Below, piece by piece: positions 6,051-54,958 of a stretch of DNA of 55,759 nucleotides. Made by a program: the position numbers and the translations under genes. How positions within the stretch are numbered: position 1 is the stretch's first letter; each line of letters begins with the position of its first letter. The stretch spans positions 1 through 55,759 of the forward strand of contig QBYJ01000006.1 of the NCBI GenBank assembly GCA_003282885.1, written 5' to 3'. The stretch comes from SAR116 cluster bacterium AG-325-F22. Its GTDB lineage: Bacteria; Pseudomonadota; Alphaproteobacteria; Puniceispirillales; Marisalimonadaceae. The notes below the pieces were generated by a model. It saw only the letters and a list, made by a program, of their open reading frames with translations, was not told the origin of the DNA and ran no database searches.

Positions 6051-6054
6051 TTAA

Positions 6055-6717
6055 TTGAAAGCAAGAGTTAAACAATTTAAATTTAATAGATTTTTAGCTT
6101 GGTTTGACATGATTATCAAAGATCATGGATTTTTAAGATTTTTCTATAATAATTTTCATAAAGTTGATGAAAATCTGTATAGAAGCAATATGCCGACTCC
6201 ATCAAGGATCAAAGATTATAGCAAACTTGGGATTAAAACTATCGTTAACCTAAGAGGGATTAGGAAGGATGGTGGTTGGTTATTGGAAAATGAAGCTTGT
6301 AACAAATATAAAATTAATTTAATTGATTTTAAAGCAAGATCACGTGCTGCACCTGAAAAAGAAATGATTTTCGAAGCTGAAAAATTGTTTAATAATATTG
6401 AATATCCAGCTTTAATACATTGTAAATCAGGTGCTGACAGAGCAGGCATAATGTGCGCTTTATACATGCTTATTCATAAAGGACATCATCCTGATTTTGC
6501 TAAAAGACAACTTTCATGGACCTATTTACATATAAAATGGGCTAAACCTGGAATTTTAGACTCTTTTGTTGAAAGCTATTCATTAGATTATAGAAAAAGT
6601 AAAATTAAATTCATGGATTGGGTTAAAAATAAATACAGTCCTAAAAAATTAGAGAATAGTTTTAGATCGGTGTGGTGGATTAACAGATTATTAGATGATG
6701 TTTTTAGAAGAGAATGA
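6055..6717 (+). CDS. Dual-specificity/tyrosine phosphatase-like protein
   Basis: A 220-residue protein with the cysteine phosphatase loop H-C-K-S-G-A-D-R (nucleophile C123, arginine R129) and upstream features of small DSP-like phosphatases: L-Y-R-S-N-M-P at 41-47 and I-K-T-I-V-N-L-R-G at 60-68. The substrate is not known; protein, lipid or sugar phosphates are possible. The likely start is a TTG at 6055 preceded by AGGAA nine bases upstream. An in-frame ATG 18 codons later lacks such a site. It is almost certainly translated with pmbA (4-nt gap) and is convergent with msbA (8-nt gap). Its place beside envelope genes suggests, but does not prove, an envelope-related substrate. Confidence 0.85.
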   Translation: MKARVKQFKFNRFLAWFDMIIKDHGFLRFFYNNFHKVDENLYRSNMPTPSRIKDYSKLGIKTIVNLRGIRKDGGWLLENEACNKYKINLIDFKARSRAAPEKEMIFEAEKLFNNIEYPALIHCKSGADRAGIMCALYMLIHKGHHPDFAKRQLSWTYLHIKWAKPGILDSFVESYSLDYRKSKIKFMDWVKNKYSPKKLENSFRSVWWINRLLDDVFRRE

Positions 6718-6725
6718 TTTTTTAT

Positions 6726-8465
6726 TTAGTTATCACCATATAATTTCTTATACAATGGTGATCTCTTAATCAACTCAAAATGTTTACCAATATCAACAAT
6801 TTTACCTTTATTAAATAAAATTATCTTATCAGATTTAACAATATTAGATAATTTATGCGCAACAGTAATGGTAGTTTTATTTTTGGTTAATTTTTCTAAT
6901 GTCTTATTAATCTCATTTTCAGTTTCAGCGTCAAGAGAACTTGTCGCTTCATCCAGTAATAGTATTGGCGCGTCCTTGAGTATTGCTCTTGCAATGGATA
7001 TACGTTGTTTCTGACCTCCAGATAAATTATTTCCACCTTCCCCAACAATAGTTTCATAACCGTTCAAAGAGGTGTTTATAAAATCATGAATTCCAGCATT
7101 TTTAGCAGCTTCTTTAATTTTTTTATCATCAGCTTTTAAATTTCCAAATTTGATATTATCCAGAAAGCTTTTGTTATATATAATTGTATCTTGGCTAACT
7201 AGTGCAATATTATTTCTGAGCGAATTTATATTTACATTTTTAATATTTTGTTCATTTATAGAAATTTCACCAGAAACTGGGTCATAAAATCTAGAAATCA
7301 GATTGATTATTGAAGATTTACCAGCCCCACTCTGACCTACTAAGGCCACTTTTGATCCTGCATTTATATAAAAATTGATATTATTTAAAACGTTTGATTT
7401 TTTATTGTAAGAAAAACTTACGTCTTTAAATGATATTGTTGGTGCTTTGTTATTCGGCATTTTTATATCAACAGCAGAAGTCATACTATTAACTTTAGGT
7501 ATTATACTTAATTGCAGGTATATTCTTCCTAGAGCAGAAATAGCTTCTTGAAATATTGTATTAAATGTTCCTAAAGCTCTTGCAGGCTGTGCAATCATAA
7601 GTAAAGCAGTAACATAGCCTACTACACTTCCTGGCGAAAGTTCTCCTAAAGAAACTCTATAACTTGCTAAACCAATAACACAAGCAGCTGCGACACCACC
7701 TAAAATATCTAAAATAGGCAATATTTTTGCTCTTCCAATCACAAGATTAAACATTTTAGAAAAAAGATTGTTTAAAACATCTTCTGACCTTTTTATTTCC
7801 ATATTTTCTAAGTTATATGATTTTACCATTCTAATACCTTGCAACATTTCGGTTAAAGTTGAAGTAACGGTCTCCATTTGCTCTTGAAGAGAAGTGGCTA
7901 TAATTTTCTGCTTTTTTCCAATTCTAAAAATTGGTCGAAGAGCGATCGGATATATAACAAATACTAGTATTGAAAGAAGCCAGTCTAACCAAATGAGATA
8001 AGACATTAATGCAATTATTGTCAGAGTGTCTCTTATTAAATTATTTACACTTCTCTCAAAACCATCTCTGATTAAAATCACGTCATTCATTATTCTGGAA
8101 ACATGGTTTCCTGACGAAAATTTATTAAGTTCCACTAGATCAGTATTAATTAAATGCTTACTTAATTTTTTTTGAATATCGACTACGATAGATAAAGAAA
8201 TTTTAGATACTTGTTTTATTTGAAAAAACATTGCTATACCTCTAATTACTGCGATTAATGCAATAATCATAGGTAATATTATCCAATTATTATTTTCATT
8301 ATCTAACAAACCATCAAATACAAGTTGTATTAAATATGGGTAAATTGAAGCAGTTGCGGCAACTAAGATTAATAAAAAAAAAGCTATAATGATATCAAAT
8401 TTATATCTTGATACAAAATCATTCCAAAAATTTTTAATTATTACTTTATTAACATCAGCAATCAT
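6726..8465 (-). CDS. msbA: MsbA-type lipid ABC transporter (fused permease and ATPase)
   Basis: A 579-residue half-transporter. Residues 1-310 hold about six membrane helices. The ATPase follows with Walker A G-Q-S-G-A-G-K-S (377-384), signature L-S-G-G-Q (481-485) and Walker B I-L-L-L-D-E-A-T (501-508). MsbA proteins flip lipid A-core across the inner membrane, and the lipid A genes transcribed divergently next door support that role here. Type I exporters of other substrates look similar, so the substrate is inferred from context. Confidence 0.85.
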   Translation of the reverse strand: MIADVNKVIIKNFWNDFVSRYKFDIIIAFFLLILVAATASIYPYLIQLVFDGLLDNENNNWIILPMIIALIAVIRGIAMFFQIKQVSKISLSIVVDIQKKLSKHLINTDLVELNKFSSGNHVSRIMNDVILIRDGFERSVNNLIRDTLTIIALMSYLIWLDWLLSILVFVIYPIALRPIFRIGKKQKIIATSLQEQMETVTSTLTEMLQGIRMVKSYNLENMEIKRSEDVLNNLFSKMFNLVIGRAKILPILDILGGVAAACVIGLASYRVSLGELSPGSVVGYVTALLMIAQPARALGTFNTIFQEAISALGRIYLQLSIIPKVNSMTSAVDIKMPNNKAPTISFKDVSFSYNKKSNVLNNINFYINAGSKVALVGQSGAGKSSIINLISRFYDPVSGEISINEQNIKNVNINSLRNNIALVSQDTIIYNKSFLDNIKFGNLKADDKKIKEAAKNAGIHDFINTSLNGYETIVGEGGNNLSGGQKQRISIARAILKDAPILLLDEATSSLDAETENEINKTLEKLTKNKTTITVAHKLSNIVKSDKIILFNKGKIVDIGKHFELIKRSPLYKKLYGDN

Positions 8466-12542: not shown

Positions 12543-13880
12543 TTATTTATCCAATATTGCTGATCGAATCTCATCTGAAAACTTTATTTTAAGTTTTGCA
12601 TTTTTTGGAGCATCACTGCTGAGTTTAATTGGTTTGCCATAATTGTCCATCACAAGCGTAAAACCCCTTTCAAGCACACTGTTAAAACTAGATGCTTCTA
12701 ATAATTGGCTGAGTGAAGCTAATTTTGTATCTTTGTTTTTTAAAATATTTTCTAAATAATTTTTAAATTTCGTATCTAACAGTTGTTGTTTTGAATCTAA
12801 ATTACTTATTAATACTTTTGGTGGTATTAATCTTTGAGTAAGTTGAGTAATTTTGTTTTTCTGTTCTATAAAAGTATTCTTAAACAAGTTTTCAATATCT
12901 TTGTAAATAAAATCTAATATTTGGTTTTTATTATCAAATATCTGATCGGGTTTACCTAGAAGTCTGATAAGATTACTAAGTCGATCTTTATTGTTATTTA
13001 ATTTATTAGTAAATGAAGTTTTAAGTCTTAAATTTAATTCAACAATTCTGGCTATCAATTCAACTCTTACCGGTACTGACTTTTCAGCAGCTCCAGTTGG
13101 TGTTGGAGCTCTTAAATCAGATACAAAATCAATCAATGTTGTATCAGTTTCATGCCCTACTGCTGAAATAACTGGTATTGTACTATTAAAAACCGCTCTA
13201 ACTACTACCTCTTCATTAAAAGACCATAGATCTTCTAAACTGCCTCCACCTCTTGCGACAATAAGTAGATCTGGTTTCTTAAAATTTGTTTGATCTGTGA
13301 ATAGATTAAACTTTTCTATGGCATTGGCTATTTGTTGAGCTGAACCTTCACCCTGAACAGCAACAGGCCACAAATAAACATGTGAAGGGAAACGATCTGA
13401 TATTCTATGTAATATATCCTTTATTACAGCCCCCGAAGGACTTGTTATGACACCAATTCTTTTTGGCAGGTATGGAATTAGCTTTTTATGCTCTTGTTTA
13501 AATAAACCTTCAGCCAGTAGTTTTTTTCTTCTATCTTCAAGCATTTTAAGAAGTGCACCCTCACCCGCAACTTCCATACTATCTACAATAATTTGATATT
13601 TTGATTGCCCTGCGAAAGTAGTAATTTTTCCAGTACAAATGACATCCATGCCTTCTTCAGGCCTGATAGAAAGTCTGGGTAATGTATATTTCCAGATTAT
13701 TGCTGCAATAGTTCCGTCTGTATCTTTAAGAGTAAAGTATACATGACCTGATCCAGGAAATGAGGGACGTGAAATTTCACCTCTAATACGAACATAACTA
13801 AAATTTGTCTCGACTGATTTTTTAATAACTTGAGAAAATTCACCTACAGAATATACAGGATTGTTATTATTATTTTCCAT
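12543..13880 (-). CDS. xseA: Exodeoxyribonuclease VII large subunit
   Basis: A 445-residue subunit of exonuclease VII, which degrades single-stranded DNA. An N-terminal OB-fold (residues 1-100, with R-I-R-G-E-I-S-R and H-V-Y-F-T-L-K-D) is followed by the catalytic core with G-V-I-T-S-P-S-G-A-V, A-R-G-G-G-S-L-E-D-L-W and S-A-V-G-H-E-T-D. A coiled-coil-rich C-terminus follows. The length is normal. The small subunit xseB is not in the window. It is divergent from purD across 84 bp and convergent with lpxL. Confidence 0.96.
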   Translation of the reverse strand: MENNNNNPVYSVGEFSQVIKKSVETNFSYVRIRGEISRPSFPGSGHVYFTLKDTDGTIAAIIWKYTLPRLSIRPEEGMDVICTGKITTFAGQSKYQIIVDSMEVAGEGALLKMLEDRRKKLLAEGLFKQEHKKLIPYLPKRIGVITSPSGAVIKDILHRISDRFPSHVYLWPVAVQGEGSAQQIANAIEKFNLFTDQTNFKKPDLLIVARGGGSLEDLWSFNEEVVVRAVFNSTIPVISAVGHETDTTLIDFVSDLRAPTPTGAAEKSVPVRVELIARIVELNLRLKTSFTNKLNNNKDRLSNLIRLLGKPDQIFDNKNQILDFIYKDIENLFKNTFIEQKNKITQLTQRLIPPKVLISNLDSKQQLLDTKFKNYLENILKNKDTKLASLSQLLEASSFNSVLERGFTLVMDNYGKPIKLSSDAPKNAKLKIKFSDEIRSAILDK

Positions 13881-13964
13881 TAATTTAAATAAGGTTTATA
13901 TTTATCATAATTCGATACTATGGCATATTGAACAAAATCGAAAGCTTTTTGGGGTGTATAATCT

Positions 13965-15227
13965 ATGAATATTTTAGTTGTGGGTGGAGGTGGCAGAGAA
14001 CATGCCATTGCTTATTCATTTTCAAAATCTCCACTAACAAAAAAGCTAATGGTTGCTCCTGGTAACCCTGGCATTGAAACTTTTGCTAAATGTTATCCAA
14101 TAGCCGCTGACGATATTGATGGACAATGTAGGCTAGCAAAAGACATGAAAGCAGACATAGTTTTCATAGGACCAGAAATCCCCTTAGTGCTTGGCTTAAA
14201 AGATAAATTATCCGAAATAGGTATTAATGCATTTGGACCATCTAAAGAAGCTGCAAAGTTGGAAGGATCAAAAATCTTCTCTCGAAATTTTTGTAAAAAA
14301 TATAATATTCCTCAACCAAGTTTTAAATATTGTAGTGATTTAAAGACTGCAAAAGACCAAATAGAATTGTTAAATGGATACTGTGTTGTAAAAGCAGATG
14401 GTCTTGCAGCAGGTAAAGGTGTTATAGTTTGTGATACAGTGAATGAAGCAATTGAGGCATCCACTCAAATGATAGAAAAAAATAAATTTGGCGATGCTGG
14501 AAAATCAATTTTAATTGAGGAAAGAATAACTGGTATTGAGGCAAGCGTGTTTGCAGTATCAGACGGCAATACCGCAATTTTACTTGCGACAGCTCAAGAT
14601 CATAAGAGAGCTTATGATAATGACGAAGGCCCGAATACTGGAGGCATGGGAGCAATATCTCCAGCACCAGCAATAAATGAAGAATTAAATGAAAAGATTT
14701 TTAACAATATTATAATGCCGACAATTGATGGAATGAGATCCAATGGTAATCCCTACCAAGGCATACTTTATGCTGGTGTCATGCTTACTGATGAAGGACC
14801 AAAGGTAATTGAATTTAATTGCAGATTTGGAGATCCAGAAACACAGGTCGTACTTCCACGCCTTAACACAGATTTAGTAGAAATTGTTCATAACACTGTC
14901 ACAAACAATCTTGAAAACACTTTCATTGATCTTATTGATAACACTACAATAACTGTTGTAATAGCAAGTCAAGGTTATCCAGGAACCTTTAAAAAGGGAA
15001 TTGAATTACCCTTACTTGATAAGTTTGATAACAAAGATGATATATTAATTTTCCATTCTGGTACTGCTAAGAATGATAATGAAAATCTTATTTCAAGTGG
15101 CGGTAGAGTTTTATCTGTGACAGCGATTGGAGAAAATGTCCAAGACTGCAGAAAAAAAGCATATAAGGCTATTGAGGAAATAAATTGGGATAATGGCTTC
15201 TTTAGAAGAGATATAGGTAAACTCTAA
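13965..15227 (+). CDS. purD: Phosphoribosylamine-glycine ligase
   Basis: A 420-residue ATP-grasp enzyme that makes glycinamide ribonucleotide in purine synthesis. The start M-N-I-L-V-V-G-G-G-G-R-E-H-A is diagnostic. V-K-A-D-G-L-A-A-G-K-G-V is the ATP-grasp loop, and D-H-K-R-A-Y-D-N-D-E-G-P-N-T-G-G-M-G is the classic PurD signature. GGGGTG upstream of the ATG may serve as ribosome-binding site. Monocistronic, convergent with tadA (2-nt gap). Confidence 0.98.
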   Translation: MNILVVGGGGREHAIAYSFSKSPLTKKLMVAPGNPGIETFAKCYPIAADDIDGQCRLAKDMKADIVFIGPEIPLVLGLKDKLSEIGINAFGPSKEAAKLEGSKIFSRNFCKKYNIPQPSFKYCSDLKTAKDQIELLNGYCVVKADGLAAGKGVIVCDTVNEAIEASTQMIEKNKFGDAGKSILIEERITGIEASVFAVSDGNTAILLATAQDHKRAYDNDEGPNTGGMGAISPAPAINEELNEKIFNNIIMPTIDGMRSNGNPYQGILYAGVMLTDEGPKVIEFNCRFGDPETQVVLPRLNTDLVEIVHNTVTNNLENTFIDLIDNTTITVVIASQGYPGTFKKGIELPLLDKFDNKDDILIFHSGTAKNDNENLISSGGRVLSVTAIGENVQDCRKKAYKAIEEINWDNGFFRRDIGKL

Positions 15228-44626: not shown

Positions 44627-45088
44627 TTAAGAAAGAACCTCTTTTTTGTCGCCTTCCATATAAACTTTAAAATTTTCGAAAAAAGTTTTAGATAATTTTT
44701 TAGCTGTACTTAAAATTAAACGGCTCCCAAGTTGAGCAATTTTTCCTTTGACTTCGCTCTTAGCAACATACTTTAATATAGTTTGTTCACCATCTTTGAT
44801 CAACTCAACATCAGCTCCACCTTTAGCAAATCCAGCAACACCACCATCTCCTTCTCCAGTAAGTGAATATTTTGTAGGACCATTGGATAAATCTAAAGTA
44901 ACTTTTCCCTTAAACTTAGCTTTTATAGGACCAATTTTCAAAACAACCTTTGCAGATAATTTGCCATCATCTTCTTCAATAAGTTCTTCACAACCAGGGA
45001 TACATGATTTTAATACCTCAAGATCGTTTAATGACTTATAAACTAATTCCAATTTTGCTGGTATTGTAATTTCATCGTTAAGTTCCAT
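44627..45088 (-). CDS. coxG: CO dehydrogenase accessory protein CoxG
   Basis: A 153-residue SRPBCC-fold protein. L-N-D-L-E-V-L-K-S-C-I-P-G-C-E and G-E-G-D-G-G-V-A-G-F-A-K-G-G are typical of CoxG, which is thought to anchor or help assemble CO dehydrogenase at the membrane. It is the last cox gene, 30 bp after coxF. Confidence 0.92.
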   Translation of the reverse strand: MELNDEITIPAKLELVYKSLNDLEVLKSCIPGCEELIEEDDGKLSAKVVLKIGPIKAKFKGKVTLDLSNGPTKYSLTGEGDGGVAGFAKGGADVELIKDGEQTILKYVAKSEVKGKIAQLGSRLILSTAKKLSKTFFENFKVYMEGDKKEVLS

Positions 45089-45118
45089 GATTTTCTCCGA
45101 TTTACTTAAATTTACTAT

Positions 45119-45916
45119 TTAAAATTTTTTACTTCCAATTTTACCAGATCTTTTTAGCTCAATTATTTCTGCAAAAATTGATAAGGCTACTTCCTCGGGC
45201 ATAATTGCATTTATAAAAATTCCTGCAGGACAAATTATATTTTTTAATTTTTCTTGCGACACACCGTCATCTATTATTTTCTTTTTTAAAGCTTGATATT
45301 TTTTTTGGCTTGCAACAAGGCCGATATAAGTTGCTTTTATTTTAAGCGATTCTGTTATTGCTATTAGGTCTGAGTTACCCTGAGTAGCTATAACAATATA
45401 TTTCTCCGAAAATTCATTTAAATTATTATTATCGTCTTGAGAGTTTCTAACATGAACTACATTAAAGCTATATTTCTCACCAAATTTGACTAATTCATTT
45501 GCAATTGGTGTATTACCATAAATTATTAATTCTGATTTAGGATAAAAAGGCTCAATAAAAATATCCATTGAACCTTCACTAGGACAATAATTTTTTTTAT
45601 GAAAAGTTTGATCGCTTTTTAATTCGTCCAAATCTTCTTTAATATCGTCTGGACTTAACACAACTAATTTGGGTTTTTTTAAATTTAATGTTTCTAAAGC
45701 TGTGTTACGTACAGCGTTCGTTACACATCCACCTCCAAGCCAACCTGATAATATTTCACCTTTGTTTGATATTATCGCTTTCATGCCAGGTTTTGCAGCA
45801 GTTGACGACATAGTTCTAATGACAGTAGCAATTACAAAAGAAGATCCCTTATTTTCAAGAGTTTTCAAAACATTTTCAAAATTTATTTTTTCATCATTAT
45901 TTGTCATATTATACAT
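45119..45916 (-). CDS. coxF: CoxF, XdhC-like molybdenum cofactor maturation protein
   Basis: A 265-residue XdhC/CoxI-family protein. The N-terminal S-T-A-A-K-P-G-M-K and G-W-L-G-G-G-C-V segments are typical of the XdhC domain, and the C-terminal half has a Rossmann-like fold. Relatives insert a sulfurated Moco or help build the Cu-S-Mo site. It overlaps coxE by about 13 nt if started at 45916; an ATG at 45907 giving an ATGA overlap is equally possible. Confidence 0.88.
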   Translation of the reverse strand: MYNMTNNDEKINFENVLKTLENKGSSFVIATVIRTMSSTAAKPGMKAIISNKGEILSGWLGGGCVTNAVRNTALETLNLKKPKLVVLSPDDIKEDLDELKSDQTFHKKNYCPSEGSMDIFIEPFYPKSELIIYGNTPIANELVKFGEKYSFNVVHVRNSQDDNNNLNEFSEKYIVIATQGNSDLIAITESLKIKATYIGLVASQKKYQALKKKIIDDGVSQEKLKNIICPAGIFINAIMPEEVALSIFAEIIELKRSGKIGSKKF

Positions 45917-47097
45917 AATTCTTTTTCTAAATTTTCTAAATCTTCTATAGTACTACAAGGCGCAAATAAATCTAAATACGAAGATGCTTCTTTCATGCTA
46001 GCAGCAACTGGTTCATAATTCTCCCATCCAAGAAGAGGATTTAGCCAGATTATTTTACAATTTCTCTTTTTTAATTTTTCAAGTTCTTGCGAAACAATTT
46101 TTGGGCTTCCTGTATCGTAACCATCAGAAATAATAATAACAACTGTTCTACCATTAACTTGGTTTTTTGAATAAACATTATTAAATTCTTTTAATGACTT
46201 TCCAATTTTAGTACCACCCGAAAATCCCTCTGTAAGTAAAGAAATCCTATTAACCGCATTTAAAGTGTCATTGTCTTTAAGGTATTCTGTAACTCTCATC
46301 AATCTAGTGTGAAACAAATATACATCTGCAGATTGATCAACACCTACCAAACCTTTAACAAAAGTTAAAAAAATCTGACTATATACCTTCATAGATCCCG
46401 ATATATCTAATATGCTTACTATTCTCATCGGCTTTTTAGGCTTACTTTTTTTATACAGTTTAATAGGATAACCTTCATAGGCTAATGATTTACTAACAAT
46501 TTTCCTTAAGTCTAATTTAACACCTTTTCTATCTGCTATTAATCGTCTTGATCTTTTATGTTTAATTGACTTAGCTATTTTCAAAACAGCTGAATGTATT
46601 CTTTTTTGTAAATCAGAATCAATTAGTTCTTTTAAATCTGTTTTCTTTTTGTTTTCTATGAAACTGGCAGTTATTTTAGACACTGCATTGCTAGAGGCTT
46701 CCATTTCGTTTTCGTTATTAGTCATAGATTTATTTGTTGATTCATTGTCAAGTGTACCTTGCTCCGGAGGGGCAAAAATACTTCGAGTATTAATTGTATC
46801 GTTATTTTTATTATTATTTTGTCTTTGGATATTTGTTTTTTTTCTTCCTTCATTTGTCCAGAAGGAATCGAATAATTCATCAAATTTTTCATATGTATCA
46901 AAGTTGTAACAATAAATTGATTTAAGAGCATTTTTCCATTCTTGTATTTTAGACAAATCAATATTTTGCAAACCATTAAGAGACTGAGTTACGTGATCAA
47001 AGGAAGTATTAAAACCGTTAGCAAACATGTGATGACTAAAGTCTAACAACCTAGAAGTTTTAGACGACCTTAAAAGAAATTTTGTAGGTTTAAGCAT
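45904..47097 (-). CDS. coxE: CoxE, von Willebrand factor A-domain protein
   Basis: A 397-residue cytosolic protein. The C-terminal VWA domain holds the MIDAS motif D-I-S-G-S-M (residues 231-236) and F-S-G-G-T-K-I-G. The N-terminal part is CoxE-type with a low-complexity Asn-rich spacer near residues 90-130. It works with CoxD in maturing the CO dehydrogenase active site. It begins 1 nt after coxD. Confidence 0.92.
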   Translation of the reverse strand: MLKPTKFLLRSSKTSRLLDFSHHMFANGFNTSFDHVTQSLNGLQNIDLSKIQEWKNALKSIYCYNFDTYEKFDELFDSFWTNEGRKKTNIQRQNNNKNNDTINTRSIFAPPEQGTLDNESTNKSMTNNENEMEASSNAVSKITASFIENKKKTDLKELIDSDLQKRIHSAVLKIAKSIKHKRSRRLIADRKGVKLDLRKIVSKSLAYEGYPIKLYKKSKPKKPMRIVSILDISGSMKVYSQIFLTFVKGLVGVDQSADVYLFHTRLMRVTEYLKDNDTLNAVNRISLLTEGFSGGTKIGKSLKEFNNVYSKNQVNGRTVVIIISDGYDTGSPKIVSQELEKLKKRNCKIIWLNPLLGWENYEPVAASMKEASSYLDLFAPCSTIEDLENLEKELCII

Positions 47098-47098
47098 A

Positions 47099-47968
47099 TT
47101 ATACTTTAGCTAATTTCTGACTTGTTTCTAAAGAAATAATTGCCTTATCAGCTTCTGTTTTTAACAAACAGACCAAAGTTGAATGTAAGATTTCATGATT
47201 TTCAGATAAATCCTTTAATCCCAATCCTGATATAGCGGCAGCCCAGTCTAAAGTTTCTGCTATACCAGGTTTTTTTTCTAAATCTTCCATTCTTAAATTT
47301 TGAACAAAGCTAACTATTTGTCTTGATAATTCTAATTCAATATTAGGCATTTTTTTTTGTAATATTTGAAGTTCAAGTTCTTTTTTTGGGTAGTATACAT
47401 AATTATAAATGCACCTTCTTCTTAACGCATCAGACAAATCTCTAGTACTGTTAGACGTTATAATTACAATTGGCTTTGAAACAGCTTTTATTGTACCAAA
47501 TTCAGGAATAGACACCTGAAACTCCGACAAAATTTCTAAAAGATACGCTTCAAACTCTTCGTCAGCTCTGTCGATTTCGTCAATGAGAAGAACAGGTGAT
47601 TTTTTTTGAGTTATTGCCTTTAATAAAGGTCTTTCCAAGAGAAAATCTCTAGAAAATATGTGTTTATCAATATCTATTTCATTGTTACTTTTGGTTTCGT
47701 TAGAACGAATTGCAAGTAATTGTTTTTGATAGTTCCATTCATAAATTGTTGAGGTAGAATCAAGACCTTCATAACATTGTAATCTTATAAGACTAGTTTC
47801 ATGAAATTTAGATAAAGCAATGGCGAGGGCAGTTTTTCCAATACCTGCCTCACCTTCCAATAGAAGAGGCCTACCAAGACTTGAAGCTATGTGAATACTC
47901 ATAGCTAATTCATCTGATGCTATATAATCTAAATCATATAGATACTTCTTAATATTTTGCCATTGCAT
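47099..47968 (-). CDS. coxD: CoxD, MoxR-type AAA+ ATPase
   Basis: A 289-residue AAA+ ATPase. Walker A is G-E-A-G-I-G-K-T (39-46), Walker B is L-L-I-D-E-I-D-R-A-D, and I-T-S-N-S-T-R-D-L-S supplies sensor 1. CoxD is known to be needed to build the Cu-S-Mo cluster in form I CO dehydrogenase. It lies 18 bp after coxL and 1 nt before coxE. Confidence 0.95.
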   Translation of the reverse strand: MQWQNIKKYLYDLDYIASDELAMSIHIASSLGRPLLLEGEAGIGKTALAIALSKFHETSLIRLQCYEGLDSTSTIYEWNYQKQLLAIRSNETKSNNEIDIDKHIFSRDFLLERPLLKAITQKKSPVLLIDEIDRADEEFEAYLLEILSEFQVSIPEFGTIKAVSKPIVIITSNSTRDLSDALRRRCIYNYVYYPKKELELQILQKKMPNIELELSRQIVSFVQNLRMEDLEKKPGIAETLDWAAAISGLGLKDLSENHEILHSTLVCLLKTEADKAIISLETSQKLAKV

Positions 47969-47986
47969 TTTTGTTTATCAGCTAGA

Positions 47987-50410
47987 CTAACTATGAAGTC
48001 CAAGATCTTTAGCAATCTTCCAAACTCTCCAATGATCATGAGGCATATGTGCCTGTGTTAATCCAAATGGTTTAAAAGCGTCATGTACTGCATTTGAAAA
48101 AGCAGACACTCCACCTACATTAGGACTTTCACCTACACCTTTTGCACCTATAGGATGATGCGGACTTGGTGTTTCTGTATAATCAGTCTCGTAATTTGGT
48201 GTTTCCCAAGCAGTTGGGATAAAAAAGTCCATCAAAGTACCTGTCATGACATTACCTTGCTCATCATAAGCAATTTCCTGTCCCATAGATATAGCTAGAG
48301 CTTCTGTTAATCCACCGTGAACCTGACCTTCGATAATCATTGGGTTTATTCGAGTACCACAATCGTCAAGAGCGTAAACCTGTTTAATGTCACTAACCCC
48401 GGTGTCTACGTCAATTTCCATGACTACTACGTAGGCTCCGTTTGGATAAGTCATATTCGGTGGATCATAATAACTAACGGCTTCCAAACCGGGTTCTACA
48501 CCAGGTATGGCCTGATTATAAGAAGCGAATGCAATCTCTTTCATAGTTTTGAATTTTTCAGGTGCACCTTTGACTGAAAATCTATCTACATCCCATTCTA
48601 AATCATCGTCGTGAACTTCTAGCAAATAAGCTGCAATCATTTGTGCCTTTGCTCTTATTTTTCTACCAGCCATGGCAGTTGCCGCTCCAGCAACTGGTGT
48701 GGAACGAGAACCATAAGTTCCTAGTCCATAAGGAGCGGTATCCGTATCACCTTCTTCTAATGTAATGTCTGAAGCTGGGATACCAATTTCAGATGCTAAT
48801 ATTTGAGCAAATGTGGTGGCATGACCTTGACCTTGTGATATAGTTCCTAATCTTGCTATAGCTGAGCCAGTTGGATGAATTCTTATTTCACAAGCATCAA
48901 ACATTCCTAAACCAAGGATATCACAATTTTTAACTGGACCAGCACCTACTATCTCAGTGAAGTGACTAAGACCAATACCCATCAACTTTCTTGATTTACC
49001 ATCTTTAAATGATTGTAATTGTTTTGCTTGATCTTCTCTTAATTGTTTATAGTTTACAGATTTCATAGCTTTTTCCCAAGCTTGATGATAATCGCCTGAA
49101 TCATATTCCCAACCAAGAGCTGATGTGTAAGGGAATTGCTCTTTTTTTATAAAATTCTTAGAGCGTAGTTCAGCAGAATCCATTCCAAGTTTCTGTGCAA
49201 GCACCTCAATCATTCTTTCTATAAAATAAGAAGCTTCAGTTACTCTAAAAGAGCACCTGTATGCTACGCCACCAGGTGCCTTGTTTGTATAAACACCGTC
49301 AACAGCTAAATAAGCAACTGGAATATCATATGAACCAGTACAAATATTCATAAATCCAGCTGGAAACTTTGTGGGATCAGCGCATGCATCAAATGCTCCG
49401 TGATCAGCTGTAGTATGACACCATAACCCAGTAATTTTTCCTTCTTTTGTTGCTGATATCTTACCATGCATCCAATAATCTCTTGCAAAAGCAGTGGCCA
49501 TTAAGTTATCCATTCTGTCTTCAACCCATTTGATTGGAACACCAGTTACAATTGACGCAACAATCGAACAAACATAACCTGGATAAACACCTACTTTATT
49601 TCCAAATCCTCCACCAATATCTGGAGAAATAATTCTAATGTTATGCTCTGGAATACTTGAAATTAATGACGCTACTGTTCTTACAGCATGTGGGGCTTGA
49701 AAAGTACCCCAAACTGTAAGTTTACCATTAACTTTATCCATAGAAGCAACACAACCGCAAGTCTCAAGAGGACATGGATGTGTTCTATGATAATAAACCA
49801 TCTCATCAGCAACAACTTCAGCTTCTTCTAATACTTTATTAGTTTGTTCCTTTTCACCTGCTTCCCATGTAAAAATGTGATTTGGGTGTCTTCTGGCTCC
49901 ATGGGCACCTTCTTTCTGATCTGCAATGTCTTCTCTTAAGATAGGTGCATCTTTTAATTCAGCTTTAAAAGGATCTGTTACTACTGGTAACTCCTCATAT
50001 TCAACTTCGACCAAGGAAACACCATCAGCTACTGCATATCTGTCGTCTCCAACAACAAACGCAACTTCTTGTCCTTGAAATAGAACTTTACCATCTGCAA
50101 GAACCATTTGTTTGTCACCTGCAAGAGTTGGCATCCAATGTAGACCTAATGGTTCTAAATCAGCTGCAGTAAGTACTGCATGAACACCAGGTAAGGCTAA
50201 AGCAGCGCTTGTATCTATATTCTTTAATCGTGCATGTGCAACTGGTGATCTTACAAAGTCACCAAAAAGCATTCCTTTTAGCTTTATATCATCTACATAA
50301 TTACCTTTACCTTGCGTAAATCTAGCATCTTCAACTCTTTTTCTAGAAGTACCAAGACCGCTTAATGCACTTTTTCTTTCTTCTCGTGATGGGGTTTTTA
50401 CGTCATCCAT
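47987..50410 (-). CDS. coxL: Form I CO dehydrogenase large (molybdenum) subunit
   Basis: An 807-residue molybdopterin cytosine dinucleotide enzyme oxidising CO to CO2. The active-site loop reads A-Y-R-C-S-F-R at residues 383-389, the form I hallmark (AYxCSFR), with C386 as the copper-sulfur ligand. Form II enzymes have AYRGAGR instead. Also present are P-D-I-G-G-G-F-G-N-K, G-Q-G-H-A-T-T and G-A-K-G-V-G-E-S (catalytic Glu near the C-terminus). Length fits form I. The start overlaps coxS by 1 nt (TAATG). Genuine CO oxidation is therefore well supported. Confidence 0.98.
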   Translation of the reverse strand: MDDVKTPSREERKSALSGLGTSRKRVEDARFTQGKGNYVDDIKLKGMLFGDFVRSPVAHARLKNIDTSAALALPGVHAVLTAADLEPLGLHWMPTLAGDKQMVLADGKVLFQGQEVAFVVGDDRYAVADGVSLVEVEYEELPVVTDPFKAELKDAPILREDIADQKEGAHGARRHPNHIFTWEAGEKEQTNKVLEEAEVVADEMVYYHRTHPCPLETCGCVASMDKVNGKLTVWGTFQAPHAVRTVASLISSIPEHNIRIISPDIGGGFGNKVGVYPGYVCSIVASIVTGVPIKWVEDRMDNLMATAFARDYWMHGKISATKEGKITGLWCHTTADHGAFDACADPTKFPAGFMNICTGSYDIPVAYLAVDGVYTNKAPGGVAYRCSFRVTEASYFIERMIEVLAQKLGMDSAELRSKNFIKKEQFPYTSALGWEYDSGDYHQAWEKAMKSVNYKQLREDQAKQLQSFKDGKSRKLMGIGLSHFTEIVGAGPVKNCDILGLGMFDACEIRIHPTGSAIARLGTISQGQGHATTFAQILASEIGIPASDITLEEGDTDTAPYGLGTYGSRSTPVAGAATAMAGRKIRAKAQMIAAYLLEVHDDDLEWDVDRFSVKGAPEKFKTMKEIAFASYNQAIPGVEPGLEAVSYYDPPNMTYPNGAYVVVMEIDVDTGVSDIKQVYALDDCGTRINPMIIEGQVHGGLTEALAISMGQEIAYDEQGNVMTGTLMDFFIPTAWETPNYETDYTETPSPHHPIGAKGVGESPNVGGVSAFSNAVHDAFKPFGLTQAHMPHDHWRVWKIAKDLGLHS

Positions 50411-50913
50411 TATGCTATTTCCTTTTTCTCAACGTTAGCTTCATCTCTTATTTTATCTGCGGCTGCCATTATTGATTTAACAATATTTTGGTATCCAGTA
50501 CATCGGCATAAGTTTCCTGAAATACCAAATCTAACCTCTTCTTCTGTAGGATTAGGGTTCTCTTGTAAAAACCTATATGACCTCATAATCATTCCAGGTG
50601 TGCAATATCCACATTGTAAACCATGATGCTCTTTAAACATTTCTTGTATAGCATGAAGTTTGTCGGGAGAACCTATACCTTCAACTGTCAAAATTTCAGA
50701 TCCTTCTGCTTGAGGGGCAAATACTGTACAAGACTTTACTGATTTTCCATTCATATCTATAGTGCAAGCACCACAATGAGACGAAGAACATCCTATATGT
50801 GCACCAGTATAATCTAAGTGCTCTCTAAGAGCGTGAACTAAAAGTGTTCTCGGCTCAACTGACAATGTCTCTTCTTTACCATTAACAGTCATAATGACAT
50901 TAATTTTTTCCAT
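50410..50913 (-). CDS. coxS: CO dehydrogenase small (iron-sulfur) subunit
   Basis: A 167-residue protein with two [2Fe-2S] clusters: N-terminal C-S-S-S-H-C-G-A-C and C-terminal C-G-Y-C-T-P-G with C-R-C-T-G-Y-Q. It passes electrons from the Mo site to the FAD subunit. An AAGGGGAAA site precedes the ATG at 50913. coxM lies 15 bp upstream. Confidence 0.97.
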
Positions 50914-50928
50914 ATCTTTCCCCTTAAT

Positions 50929-51783
50929 TTAGGTTCGTTCAATAGCTCTTGTAAGAGCCTTTTTAATTACAATACCAGCGACGTATTTCTTGAATTCAAC
51001 TGGTCCTCTTTGATCAGCTACAGGATCACTTTGTTCTACACAAGCTTCTGTGACTTGAGTTAATATGTTATTATCAATTTCCTTTCCAAGGATTATATCT
51101 ACGGCTTTATTACAATATACTGGAGTGTCTGATAAGTTAGTTAATGCTATAGAGGCACTTGAACACATATTATTTTCGACTTTTAATATTACACCAGCTG
51201 CTGCAGTCGCGTAATCACCAATTTTTCTTTTTTGTTTTTCATAGGCATAACCACCTGATGGAGCTTCAAAGGAAATTGAAATAAGAATTTCATCATCTTC
51301 CCTAACAGTAAAATAAGCTCCTTCATAAAACTCTCTTGCTTTAACATCGCGAACACCCTTAGAACCACTTAATTTATAAGTAGCGTCAAGTAGTTGCATT
51401 AAGCCAGGCATATCATTCGCTGGATCACCATTAGCCACATTTCCCCCGATTGTACCAAGGTTCCTGACTTGGGGGTCAGCAATTTGCAATGAAGCTTCTC
51501 TTATGATAGGAGCTTTTTTAAATAATTCTTCATTATTTATCAATTCAACTTGAGTAGTCATTGCACCAATTGATATTCGGTTGTCTGTAATTTCAATACC
51601 TTTAATTTCATTAATCCCAGACAAATCTATTAAATGTTTAATATCCGTAAGTCTTTGTTTCATTACTGGTATCAAACTATGACCTCCAGCAATCACTCTT
51701 GCCTCATCGCCAAAGTCTACCATAAGAGATACAGCTTTTTCTATATTTTCTGGTTTATAAAAAGTGAATGCACTAGGTATCAT
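50929..51783 (-). CDS. coxM: CO dehydrogenase medium (FAD) subunit
   Basis: A 284-residue FAD-binding protein. A-G-G-H-S-L-I-P-V-M-K-Q-R-L and T-I-G-G-N-V-A-N-G-D-P are the two FAD loops. It is the first gene of coxM-S-L-D-E-F-G. GGGAGG precedes the ATG by 6 nt, a strong translation signal. Confidence 0.97.
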   Translation of the reverse strand: MIPSAFTFYKPENIEKAVSLMVDFGDEARVIAGGHSLIPVMKQRLTDIKHLIDLSGINEIKGIEITDNRISIGAMTTQVELINNEELFKKAPIIREASLQIADPQVRNLGTIGGNVANGDPANDMPGLMQLLDATYKLSGSKGVRDVKAREFYEGAYFTVREDDEILISISFEAPSGGYAYEKQKRKIGDYATAAAGVILKVENNMCSSASIALTNLSDTPVYCNKAVDIILGKEIDNNILTQVTEACVEQSDPVADQRGPVEFKKYVAGIVIKKALTRAIERT

Positions 51784-51833
51784 ATAGATCCTCCCAATAA
51801 TTCTAAATTAAAATGATTCTAAGGTACATATAT

Positions 51834-51839
51834 ATTATA
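51834..51839 (-). promoter_or_regulatory. Candidate -10 element for the cox operon
   Basis: A consensus TATAAT on the minus strand lies 51 bp upstream of the coxM ATG. No good -35 is seen 17-18 bp upstream, so an activator may be required, or the match may be chance in AT-rich sequence. Confidence 0.35.
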
Positions 51840-51902
51840 AATTCTTAAAAAATTAAAGATAAATAATTTCACATATTAATTAATTATAATTTAATTTAAT
51901 TT

Positions 51903-51954
51903 TAGTAAGGATACTCGTAACGAACTGGTAAGCCTTGCGGCACTGTTTTTTGAG
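51903..51954 (-). repeat. Degenerate copy of the 3' part of tRNA-Leu (attachment-site-like repeat)
   Basis: This 52-nt stretch aligns with 53184-53236, the tRNA-Leu from anticodon loop through the CCA end. I count 45 identities in 53 alignment columns (7 mismatches, 1 gap), including a 16-base exact run covering the variable arm. Both copies have the same orientation. The T-stem is broken and the CCA is CTA, so it is not a functional tRNA. It lies 1,281 bp from the true tRNA on its 3' side, where integration into the tRNA end would leave a displaced copy. A decayed duplicate tRNA gene is the alternative. Confidence 0.85.
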
Positions 51955-52212
51955 TTACTTGATAACACTTATGTATATTTTACATATTTAAGAAATTTGA
52001 AGTATTACATATAATAATCCATCCCCTCGATATATATATTGTAAATATTATCAAGCTAATCAGATTAAAATAGAAAAAGAAAAAATTATTTATAAAAAGG
52101 AAACAATAATCTAAAATATTAACTCTTGTCATATATATATATAGATACAAAGTTTGCTGTTAGATACTATAATAATGATGTCCTTATGCTGCCCTGGCAT
52201 AAAACTTGAACG

Positions 52213-52218
52213 TATAAT
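52213..52218 (+). promoter_or_regulatory. Candidate -10 box of the phage-like oxygenase gene
   Basis: A consensus TATAAT sits 20 bp before the ATG at 52239. The sequence 17 bp upstream (TGCCCT) is a poor -35. A start near 52225 would leave a leader of about 14 nt containing an AAAGGGG ribosome-binding site. Confidence 0.45.
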
Positions 52219-52238
52219 GCTAATTAAAAGGGGTTGAT

Positions 52239-52844
52239 ATGAATCACATTCAAAATTCATCTTTAAAGTTAGATTTTTTTCAATTTGGGCCGATAATTTG
52301 CCATTACAAATTAGAAGAACAATTTGTTGATGATTTAACATATAAAGGTAAAAAATCAAATATCGATTTTAAAGAAAATTTAGCTGGTCATATTCAGGAT
52401 GAAAAATTATTTTCAGAAAAGGATACAAAGTGGTTTTTAAACAAAACTCAAGATATTTTTTTATCTTATATCGATACTTTACATAAACGTTATTCTATAA
52501 ATAAAATACCAAAGTCACTTGAAATACAAAAGCTATGGATTAATTTTATGAAGGATGGTGAATATAACCCGCCTCATCATCATAAGGGTGATATTTCGTT
52601 TGTAATTTATACTGAAGTTCCAAATGAAATCATTGAAGAAAATAATTCTTTCAAAGGTGTAGGTACTGGGCCAGGTTGCATTGAGTTTTTGTATGGAGAG
52701 GTATGTGATGCTTACAGATCAAATTTTAGTTTTGTACCTCAAAAAGGAAATATGTTTATATTCCCTGCTAAATTGAGGCATTACGTTGCACCATTTAAGT
52801 CAAAAGTAATTAGGACAAGTATTTCGGGAAATTTGTTTATTTAA
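52239..52844 (+). CDS. Putative 2OG-Fe(II) oxygenase, phage-type
   Basis: A 201-residue protein. N-P-P-H-H-H-K-G-D-I-S-F-V-I-Y (110-124) and G-N-M-F-I-F-P-A-K-L-R-H-Y-V (170-183) match the putative 2OG-Fe(II) oxygenase family found widely in marine cyanophages and other marine phages. The iron ligands are probably a histidine of H113-H115 with D118 nearby and H181, and R192 may bind 2-oxoglutarate. Substrate unknown. It is the only gene between the tRNA-Leu and its partial copy. The start has an AAAGGGG site at proper spacing. Confidence 0.85.
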   Translation: MNHIQNSSLKLDFFQFGPIICHYKLEEQFVDDLTYKGKKSNIDFKENLAGHIQDEKLFSEKDTKWFLNKTQDIFLSYIDTLHKRYSINKIPKSLEIQKLWINFMKDGEYNPPHHHKGDISFVIYTEVPNEIIEENNSFKGVGTGPGCIEFLYGEVCDAYRSNFSFVPQKGNMFIFPAKLRHYVAPFKSKVIRTSISGNLFI

Positions 52845-53183
52845 AATGTAAATAATTTATGTATCAAATACAAAATATATATTAAAATAGCATTAAAATT
52901 TATTGCAAAAGCTAGCAAGATGATTAAGTTTTTTACCTCCCTACATAAACAATTTTTAAATTTTCACAATTATTTTAACTTTGTAAGGTGAATTTGGAGT
53001 TTACAATTCAAATATTGCCACAAATTTATTAAACATTTTATCTTTCAAGTATTTTGCAAGTTATAAAAAACGTACCTCATTCGTACACTTTTCAAATACT
53101 ATTGCCAAAAAGCAATAATTTTAAAAGAGTCTATTTGTAGAAGAAACCTATCAAAATCATAACCTACCTTTATCTGTAAGGTT
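52845..53183. other. Non-coding stretch between oxygenase gene and tRNA-Leu
   Basis: 339 bp of very AT-rich DNA without a credible reading frame. Small inverted repeats are present (ATTGC-6 nt-GCAAT at 53101-53116; ACCTT/AAGGT around 53166-53183, just past the tRNA 3' end). The latter could help end the tRNA transcript. Otherwise I see nothing recognisable. Confidence 0.55.
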
Positions 53184-53268
53184 TGGTAGGGATACCCGGA
53201 ATCGAACCGGGAAGCCTTGCGGCACTGGTTTTTGAGACCAGCGTGTTTACCTATTTCACCATATCCCC
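53184..53268 (-). tRNA. tRNA-Leu(CAA)
   Basis: A class II tRNA with the CCA end encoded (53186-53184). The 5' acceptor GGGGATA pairs with TATCCCT, with one G-U at the first pair. The anticodon stem CTGGT/ACCAG encloses the 7-nt loop CTCAAAA with anticodon CAA, which reads UUG. A long variable arm (GCC-GCAA-GGC) and T-arm CCCGG-TTCGAAT-CCGGG follow. Its 3' part is repeated at 51903-51954. Confidence 0.97.
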
Positions 53269-53354
53269 AATATTTTTAATTAAAAGTATACTAAAATAAA
53301 TATTATATATATCAATGTTAGAAAATTAAAAGATATAAATCAGATGAATTAACT

Positions 53355-53954
53355 ATGATTTTTAACAACTATAAAAATATAATAAATAACTCAATTGAAA
53401 AAGCTAAAACGAATGCTGTTAAGCCGTTGGCTGACAAAATTTTAGGCTTTATTTCAATAATTGAATCAATCATTTTCCCTCTCCCAGTTGATCCATTTTT
53501 GGCGGGATTGACTTTAGCTGCTCCTAGAAAAGCTTTTAGATTTGCAATTGTTTGTACTATTGGATCTGTGGTTGGTGGTGTGATTGGATGGTTATTGGGT
53601 TATTTAATTGGGCCGTCTATTGAGAATTTATTTCTATATTTTCCTTGGTTTACTGAAGAGAAGTTTAATACCGTCAAGATTGCTTACAAAGACAACGGTA
53701 TGCTGATTATTTTCTTGGGAGCTTTTACACCCCTTCCGTATAAAATTATAACCATTACAAGTGGAATAGCAGAAGTAAACATATTTGCATTTATTTTAAT
53801 GTCCATTTTAGGAAGAGGCACTCGTTTTTTCATAGTTGCTTATTTGGTTAAATTTTTTGGTAAACCAGCACTATTATTTCTGCAAAAAAACCTTCTGATT
53901 TCTTCTAGCATTTTAGGATTGGCAATTATAATTTTTACGATTTATATTATGTAA
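53355..53954 (+). CDS. YqaA-family (DedA/VTT-like) inner-membrane protein
   Basis: A 199-residue polytopic protein. P-L-P-V-D-P-F-L-A-G-L near residue 37 and F-L-G-A-F-T-P-L-P-Y-K near residue 115 are YqaA/VTT-domain signatures. About four to five membrane helices are evident. Relatives are linked to lipid transport and membrane homeostasis, but a function is not established. Its stop abuts the dsbB start (no gap), so it heads the dsbB-coq7 operon. Confidence 0.88.
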   Translation: MIFNNYKNIINNSIEKAKTNAVKPLADKILGFISIIESIIFPLPVDPFLAGLTLAAPRKAFRFAIVCTIGSVVGGVIGWLLGYLIGPSIENLFLYFPWFTEEKFNTVKIAYKDNGMLIIFLGAFTPLPYKIITITSGIAEVNIFAFILMSILGRGTRFFIVAYLVKFFGKPALLFLQKNLLISSSILGLAIIIFTIYIM

Positions 53955-54437
53955 ATGTTAATGAACAATATTTTTAAAATATCTTTTTTAATATCCTCTT
54001 TAATGCTTTTATCCGCTTTTTATTTAGAATATTTTCATAACGCATTTCCATGCAACTTATGCATCACTCAAAGGTGGTTTCACGCTCTAATCATTTCTTA
54101 CAGTTTAATTGCAATTTTAACTTTAGAAAAAAATTTTATAGCAGATGAATTAGTTTTAATAGGTCTATCTCTAACTTGGATTGCAAGTTCAATTGCCGGA
54201 TTATATCATTTTGGTATCGAGATGAATTTCTGGACTGGACCAGATGAATGTTCTTCTGGTATTGATTTTTCAAAAGATACACTTAAATATTTACTAAATA
54301 AATCTCCTCTTAAATGTGATGAAGTAATGTTCAGTATATTTGGGTTGTCATTAGCTGGTTGGAATACACTAATGTCATTTATTATGTTTATGATAGTAAG
54401 TGTTTTTTTAACGAATAAAAGGTTTATAAAAGTATGA
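53955..54437 (+). CDS. dsbB: Disulfide bond formation protein DsbB-like
   Basis: A 160-residue four-helix membrane protein that passes electrons from DsbA to quinone. The periplasmic pairs are C33-N-L-C36 (in P-C-N-L-C-I-T-Q-R) and C99 with C121. F-G-L-S-L-A-G-W-N is the typical last-helix motif. The start abuts the preceding gene, and it overlaps coq7 by 4 nt (ATGA). Confidence 0.92.
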   Translation: MLMNNIFKISFLISSLMLLSAFYLEYFHNAFPCNLCITQRWFHALIISYSLIAILTLEKNFIADELVLIGLSLTWIASSIAGLYHFGIEMNFWTGPDECSSGIDFSKDTLKYLLNKSPLKCDEVMFSIFGLSLAGWNTLMSFIMFMIVSVFLTNKRFIKV

Positions 54438-54958
54438 AAAAAATTATTAGTAAACATCAGATTGATTCTATTTTGAGAGTTGATCATGCTGGAGAGACGG
54501 CGGCAGCTAAAATATACGACGGACAGTTGGCTATTTTAAAAAATACCCCTGTTGGCCCCACTATTCAACATATGAAGGATCAAGAACAAGAACACCTAGA
54601 CACATTTAATGATCTTCTTGTGGAAAATGATACCAGACCGACTGCTCTTCTTCCTCTTTGGAATGTCATGGGTTATGGGCTTGGTGTTGCGAGTGCCATA
54701 ATGGGAGAAAAAGCAGCTATGGCTTGCACAATAGCCGTTGAAGAAGTCATTGGAGAACATTATGCAAAGCAGGCAGAAAGTTTAGACGACAAACATAAAA
54801 AACTTAAATCAACATTAATGAAATTTAGAGATGATGAACTTGACCACCTTGAAACTGGAGTTGAATATGATGGTGAAAATGCACCAGGATTTGATGTAAT
54901 GAAAACTATAGTTCAGTTAGGTTGTAGAACTGCTATAAAAATTTCAGAGAAAATTTAA
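54434..54958 (+). CDS. coq7: Ubiquinone biosynthesis monooxygenase Coq7
   Basis: A 174-residue diiron hydroxylase adding the C-6 hydroxyl of demethoxyubiquinone. R-V-D-H-A-G-E-T-A-A begins the family signature. Likely iron ligands are E21, E51-x2-H54, E103 and E135-x2-H138 (D-D-E-L-D-H). The reaction needs O2, consistent with an aerobe. The overlap with dsbB links two quinone-related membrane functions. Confidence 0.97.
   Translation: MKKIISKHQIDSILRVDHAGETAAAKIYDGQLAILKNTPVGPTIQHMKDQEQEHLDTFNDLLVENDTRPTALLPLWNVMGYGLGVASAIMGEKAAMACTIAVEEVIGEHYAKQAESLDDKHKKLKSTLMKFRDDELDHLETGVEYDGENAPGFDVMKTIVQLGCRTAIKISEKI

Follow-up and report, generated by a model that had tools for sequence, protein, structure and literature searches.

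A tRNA gene whose 3' part recurs a short distance away raises the question of whether the DNA in between was inserted there and, where that DNA carries no integrase, of how it could have arrived. Such a repeat had been described in an earlier note on the window, by which we mean the whole stretch of 55,759 nucleotides analysed here, contig 6 of the SAR116 cluster bacterium AG-325-F22 assembly. The window's own genome (G000) comprises 1.6 Mb in 88 contigs and is an estimated 63% complete. Three readings had been offered for the interval, namely a decayed prophage or island, a minimal cargo element mobilised in trans, or a duplicated tRNA gone to ruin. We have compared the locus with its counterparts in related genomes and argue that the interval is likely to be a site-specific insertion, an integrase-less cargo unit of a family of units at tRNA-Leu(CAA), which was once mobilised in trans and is now partly worn.

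The interval beside tRNA-Leu(CAA)

A single tRNA gene, tRNA-Leu(CAA), was detected in the window by ARAGORN. The features of the locus are as follows (window coordinates).

50929..51783, minus strand: left flank, gene for the FAD-binding subunit in a CO-dehydrogenase-like cluster; also the left neighbour at the empty sites
51900..51954, minus strand: distal repeat copy, decayed, far unit boundary (gapped comparison)
51955..52056, unstranded: left unit end, a putative arm block common to units of other cargo, with a degraded second block
52129-52359, minus strand: 76-aa ORF overlapping the 2OG gene
52239..52844, plus strand: cargo, 201-aa phage-type 2OG-Fe(II) oxygenase, frame intact (PF13759, phrog_81)
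53071..53086, plus strand: right arm-type repeats, an altered CGTACC at 53071 and TTCGTAC at 53080
53080..53181, unstranded: right unit end, common to other units (consensus match and alignment to the G006 and G026 units)
53182..53236, minus strand: proximal repeat, 55 bp, tRNA-side unit boundary (55-bp block common to relatives' displaced copies)
53184..53268, minus strand: tRNA-Leu(CAA), the insertion site, its 3' part being the proximal repeat (ARAGORN)
53355..53954, plus strand: right flank, gene for a VTT-domain membrane protein, with dsbB-like and coq7 genes beyond it

Aligned with gaps, 53182-53236 and its same-orientation copy at 51900-51954 share 47 identical columns, with 7 mismatched and 2 gap columns; the repeat covers the tRNA from about position 33 and reaches 2 bp past its 3' end. 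The repeat of the tRNA-Leu 3' end some 1.28 kb away was thus confirmed; its length had been slightly under-called at 53 columns, intact repeats in relatives being 55 bp. Its ungapped 34-nt core, identical at 31/34 positions at a spacing of 1,282 bp, contains the 16-base exact run previously noted, AAGCCTTGCGGCACTG. Since the displaced copy scores 31 for this core and the runner-up among plus-strand positions of the 55.8 kb window 19/34, a chance repeat was ruled out. The DNA that follows the distal copy matched the tRNA 5' half at 9/32 positions, against a window mean of 8.3, and on this comparison is not a tRNA 5' half. The description of the interval as a one-gene island held for ORFs with a family match, of which there is one (52239-52844); the overlapping minus-strand ORF also lies in the interval. 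The four scanned genes flanking the interval all matched cellular families. As to the left neighbourhood, the CO-dehydrogenase-like cluster (window 44627-51783; names assigned by eye, the FAD-binding subunit alone having been scanned) directly adjoins the island, and in other congeners a small CoxG-like gene, also named by eye, adjoins the tRNA or the outermost copy instead.

Window positions 50929-54958 were used as a query against 60 relatives and the window's own genome. In three congeners (G010, G013 and G035), on one contig each, the matches to the left flank and to the tRNA and right flank overlapped by 55 bp; each has a single tRNA and no interval, with neighbours on both sides as in the window. 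When the window flanks were joined in silico, they were identical to these empty sites in 223/247 (G010), 223/243 (G013) and 214/249 (G035) columns. This comparison, which the earlier note had put forward as a check, supports its proposal of integration at a tRNA attachment site. As three relatives have the same neighbours and one tRNA but lack the interval, we conclude that it was inserted at the 3' end of tRNA-Leu(CAA); were it older, it would have been precisely lost in the close relatives. The window unit therefore shows two features of tRNA islands, a direct repeat of the tRNA 3' end at its far boundary and an empty site in relatives. An aconitase tree of 18 genomes places G010 as sister to G000 (support 100/98), with 99.0% identity between their aconitase genes. 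An age estimate, which sets 7 mismatches over the 55 columns of the distal copy beside 15/193 for neighbouring intergenic DNA compared with G010 (5/107 and 10/86 by part), hints, without being decisive, that the insertion is perhaps older than the G000-G010 split and was then precisely lost in G010.

The cargo protein was compared with 50,697 phage records and gave 205 matches, all below 60% identity, the best being to pelagiphage Mosig (41%). When it was aligned with two phage and five congener homologues, it was nearer to those of phages (42 and 34%) than to those of congeners (29-30%), and H113, H115, H181 and R192 were invariant. We take these, from knowledge of the family, to be 2OG oxygenase site residues, and their invariance is consistent with an intact site. 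In the two pelagiphages examined the 2OG gene has a recombination endonuclease gene on one side and an Smc/SbcC-like gene on the other. A search of IMG/VR with the protein gave no confirmed match and a PDB sequence search none at E 0.01. Eleven loci with 2OG homologues elsewhere were scanned for tRNAs over 3-4 kb and no further island was found; one of them (L029, from another family) had a nearby tRNA, tRNA-Thr.

Two of the earlier readings can be weighed at this point. A prophage that used tRNA-Leu as attB and decayed until one gene was left would account for a cargo gene that is itself phage-like, with its best phage match nearer than the congener homologues aligned with it. Nevertheless, this origin is very improbable, as no phage structural or other virion genes were recognised in the interval, its ends are those of the island family described below, and the pelagiphage counterparts sit among recombination genes; the unit proteins scanned likewise included no recognised virion genes of the kind that a prophage at this site would carry. 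The duplication of a full tRNA-Leu, one copy of which decayed to a pseudo-tRNA 1.28 kb away, agrees with a displaced copy that is a degraded piece of tRNA in the same orientation. It was dismissed as barely credible, because the interval is absent from the three relatives, a second full tRNA-Leu was found in 0 of the 34 loci scanned, and the intact displaced copies of relatives stop at the anticodon loop, after which a conserved element end begins.

A family of stacked units in the genus

Of 40 genomes of the genus, 18, counting the window's own, had displaced copies of the repeat. A further 10 genomes, among them the three with empty sites and G022, had the tRNA in the stretch fetched with no recognised displaced copy, and in the remaining genomes of the genus the locus was missing from the assembly or not resolved. 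The left-junction pattern, with at most 3 mismatches, occurred in 15 of 61 genomes, all of the window's genus, and in 0 of 24 genomes from other families of the order; IMG/VR held no exact match to it. We catalogued 22 units from 15 genomes, of which 20 have both ends and 2 a right end alone. Other units in which an end was missing or broken were left out, namely the G022 ABC unit, the first G006 ABC unit, the G021 unit C8-C9, the G004 hydantoinase unit, the second units of G034 and G005, and those of G027, G032 and G063. The catalogued units are not independent, as seven of the 22 are mutually homologous ABC units and others share parts. The window unit is the smallest found, with 1,227 bp inside the repeats and 1,282 bp when the 55-bp copy is included.

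Seven arrays with more than one displaced copy were compared, and in all 7 divergence was greatest in the outermost copy; L056, where the outer copy is broken after 40 bp (97.5% identical there; next copy 98.2%), was not counted. This order is as expected if new units enter beside the tRNA. In G033, the tRNA bears a T that is absent from the tRNAs of close relatives and also from the displaced copy of G033 itself, which suggests that the new tRNA 3' half comes with the incoming unit and that the displaced copy is the old host sequence. The units occur in differing order and company between genomes.

The cargo of integrase-less units includes a solute-binding protein with a permease, an ABC ATPase and an amidohydrolase; hydantoinase A/B, joined in G021 by a DIOX_N/2OG oxygenase and a Bmp protein; a branched-chain-type ABC transporter with an amidase; a polysaccharide and alginate lyase; and TPR/methyltransferase proteins. 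No conjugation genes were recognised among the unit proteins scanned. Some units carry defence-like genes, including an McrB-like ATPase, an AAA_11/12 helicase with a DUF559 nuclease domain (PADLOC MkoC/MkoA matches), a RecQ-like protein matching DpdF models and one PDC-M72B match (L062:651-2627, L056:6400-9711, L054:5184-6875 and L046:9887-11347). A 4.4-kb unit encodes two proteins (459 and 744 aa) with no Pfam match at E 0.001 (L048:2530-6355, L064:120-3284) and is about 97% identical between G003 and G021, over segments that may overlap. We also observed that G007 resembles an unoccupied version of the site at which G024 has two units (L063 14193-14279 and L061 14367-14421, oriented as the window), its DNA before the tRNA being, by eye, like that before the outermost copy of G024.

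Integrases, unit ends and movement between clades

The 22 units were searched by tblastn with three integrases of the unit family and 27 other tyrosine integrases. Two larger units had a full tyrosine integrase, one a truncated integrase, three a remnant and 16 none, the last group measuring 1.2-6.8 kb. The full integrases, of 370 aa (PF00589, phrog_1), lie directly beside the tRNA in the tRNA-proximal units of G024, which also has an HTH_36 protein and an AAA_25 ATPase, and of G017, which also has a small HTH_17 protein with a weak phrog excisionase match. The truncated integrase (residues 120-370 matched) is that of G006, together with a second integrase fragment; the remnants are C-terminal pieces of 26-74 aa near the right end. 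When the Pfam integrase model was run on 18 genomes, including all 15 of the catalogue, matches within units were confined to G024, G017, G006 and G026 (a fragment), and the Pfam resolvase model matched in no unit. The absence of an integrase from the window interval, as first noted, was borne out by tblastn and the Pfam integrase model, with which neither an integrase nor an integrase remnant was detected, and the resolvase model likewise gave none. The integrase of the unit family was not found in the window's own genome as assembled (63% complete), which has one other integrase-model match, on contig 36, and a search of IMG/VR for it gave no confirmed match. A different tyrosine integrase gene (PF00589 match, G032:C17:7917-8393) was observed in G032 a few kb from a conserved left arm, before which no tRNA repeat was recognisable (L140, reverse complement, 5984-7174 and 12550-15000).

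An ungapped comparison covered 18 left and 16 right unit ends, among them those of the window; the cargo of most is unrelated. Left ends are alike over about 130 bp, the mean pairwise identity, calculated without the window, being 0.89 in columns 1-25 and 0.54 by columns 126-150. Among right ends the likeness is concentrated in the final 50 bp (0.80 in the last 25 and 0.59 in the preceding 25, again without the window). Against consensus sequences made without it, the window unit matched at 43/55 in the first 55 bp of its left end, the single best of 111410 positions, and at 36/60 in the last 60 bp of its right end, the single best of 111400 positions; the right end was also 70-73% identical to the G006 and G026 units over 98-108 bp. 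The second left block of relatives carries TTTTCGTACC repeats, which are degraded in the window. This block, which in units of unrelated cargo lies about 70-130 bp in from the left end, contains a short inverted repeat as well as the 12-bp direct repeats TTTTCGTACCAT (for example L064, reverse complement, 7548-7680; degraded window counterpart, 52027-52056), and may represent arm sites or have a role in regulation.

The heptamer TTCGTAC was counted 37 times in 10,120 bp of unit ends versus 5 times in 100,042 bp of unit middles, a count that is not of independent units and in which the first 200 bp of the two units with a right end only were taken as ends. It lies mostly 116 and 128 bp from the unit end on the left and 84, 95 and 107 bp on the right. 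An end of 17 of the 22 units has it nearby; the other five, some of which are shared between clades, have none at either end. In the window, the TTCGTAC at 53080 is the only one on either strand and lies 95 bp from the unit end as in relatives, and there is none in the left end. Short repeats of such a kind are typical of the arm-type sites of tyrosine integrases, and by this analogy the TTCGTAC repeats are candidate integrase arm sites.

Evidence that units without an integrase have moved was obtained from comparisons between clades, in which unit and coq7-region identities were summed over BLAST segments that can overlap. The ABC unit found in G022, which belongs to the same clade as the window's genome, was 94.7-95.7% identical to eight units of the other clade over 3,388-3,788 bp. 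For the same comparison, the adjacent VTT-dsbB-coq7 DNA was 74.3-75.6% identical (7 pairs) and aconitase 80.3-81.6% (6 pairs). Similarly, the hydantoinase unit was 93.4% identical between G062 and G004, where aconitase is 81.0% identical, and 93.0% between G062 and G021 (no aconitase was found in G021). As the units are far more alike than core genes across clades, these identities show that some integrase-less sibling units have passed between clades. Several pairs of ABC units inside the other clade differ to about the same degree as core genes do, as in vertical descent. No second copy of the window unit was found, the best-scoring protein match in the 60 relatives being 33% identical, and its own mobility is therefore judged from that of its kin.

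Two further explanations bear on how the units spread. Homologous recombination between flanking core genes or tRNA copies, in place of an integrase, would suit a site that is always the same and a tRNA of 87 bp, near-identical in the genomes fetched, that could serve for one crossover. The ABC units have no TTCGTAC at the right end and that of G022 has lost its left end, so that their last move could have been by homologous recombination. As the general route it is unlikely, since the core DNA of G022 is G000-like (93.8% on the right side and 93.5% in the left flank), the order and company of units differ between genomes, and the conserved ends would be left unexplained. That the interval is instead the last remnant of a larger autonomous island, shrunk by internal deletion and never mobilised in trans, is quite possible, if short of probable. 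Internal deletion does make such units, as the three with C-terminal remnants and no working integrase attest, and the worn distal core and left repeats of the window unit fit a remnant as well. That no integrase remnant was detectable in the window unit argues against it, as do the integrase-less kin units shared between clades, which imply that movement follows such loss here.

A probable trans-mobilised cargo unit and its known counterparts

The window unit shares both ends with integrase-bearing and with many integrase-less units at the same tRNA, and so, of the three readings in the earlier note, the minimal cargo element mobilised in trans is the best fit, the supply of the integrase from elsewhere being what we infer. 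In the mechanism proposed, a phrog_1-type tyrosine integrase would act through arm sites at the two unit ends and recombine the 55-bp core of a unit with the tRNA 3' half. The incoming unit would bring a new tRNA 3' half and push the old half outward, which would then be free to decay. Most catalogued units consist of cargo and two ends with no integrase, and would thus depend on an integrase from elsewhere. The suggestion of decay proved right in part, in that the distal copy and left repeats of the window unit are degraded and the 2OG frame is intact. With distal core and left arm repeats worn, the unit is probably hard to mobilise now, and with no left TTCGTAC and 7/55 mismatches in the distal core it may have been immobile for long.

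What looked like a chance repeat thus becomes an example of a streamlined ocean bacterium gaining single genes or operons at a fixed address, and a possible route for a phage-type 2OG oxygenase gene into a bacterial chromosome. Since many units have no recombinase yet keep both ends, the site also offers a testable model of cargo mobilisation in trans, in which the core is defined and there are candidates for the arm repeats and the integrase. Tentatively, tRNA-Leu(CAA) in this genus may be viewed as an integron-like platform, at which recombinase-less cassettes, made up of no more than a tRNA-half core, two end blocks and a single gene or operon, are captured beside the tRNA, stack with the newest innermost and circulate between species, served by the integrase of rare kin; the window cassette would be near-minimal, its gene probably coming from the marine phage pool. 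In integrons, the newest cassette lies nearest the insertion site. The likeness to integrons, and to CALINs, which the available text of PMC11389934 describes as integrase-less cassette arrays, is one of outline, with integrase-less cassettes that stack at one site, the newest apparently nearest to it. Unlike in integrons, the core is a 55-bp tRNA half and not attC, and the enzyme is a phage-type integrase.

Searches of the SAR116 literature on genomic islands and tRNA and on integrase and attachment sites found nothing on this locus, and we make no claim on its unpublished status beyond those searches; the accessible parts of PMC8547437, PMC10734472, PMC12416821 and PMC5217437 likewise held nothing on it. 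Closest in structure are CIMEs, described in the portion of PMC5704250 available as integrase-less segments with attL and attR as their limits, arranged in tandem with elements that do carry an integrase, at the 3' end of a tRNA gene. The window unit has the structural features of a CIME, being bounded by attL and attR (the distal site degraded) and having no integration or transfer genes, with the 2OG ORF alone matching a family. As to CIME descent from an ICE or IME, integrase remnants occur in three sibling units and none was detected in the window unit. Unlike CIMEs, several units keep both end blocks and cross clades with no integrase in the array fetched (G003, G062), and no conjugation gene was recognised in the SAR116 unit proteins scanned.

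The Dehalococcoides ssrA islands, according to the text available of PMC3146451, are tandem islands with RNA-gene-end repeats, 15 of them without an integration module. They resemble the units here in their multiple tandem arrangement and in the lack of an integration module from some; their recombinase is of the serine type, their site the tmRNA gene and their repeat 20 bp long, in contrast to the tyrosine integrase, tRNA-Leu and 55-bp repeat of SAR116. Tycheposons of Prochlorococcus and other plankton, in the excerpted account of PMC10872708, are tRNA-associated tyrosine-recombinase elements of 4-200 kb with metabolic cargo. The window unit is like them in being integrated at a tRNA gene, but as it has no tyrosine recombinase it is not itself a tycheposon as there described; its kin in G024 and G017 have one, and 16 of the 22 units here measure 1.2-6.8 kb without a recombinase, compared with 4-200 kb with one. 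The excerpts of the same paper (PMC10872708) also describe fGI-2 of Methylopumilus, an additive island of a streamlined planktonic bacterium that is likewise marked by recurring tRNA 3'-end repeats, there of 20 bp of tRNA-Lys and here of 55 bp of tRNA-Leu; for fGI-2 these excerpts mention neither conserved end blocks nor dependence on an integrase. The locus is thus of a known kind and, by analogy, would work as do CIMEs in tandem accretion, the Dehalococcoides ssrA islands and tycheposons; what sets it apart is that small units without an integrase are many, keep conserved ends and recall integrons in outline, in a genus for which we found no such description.
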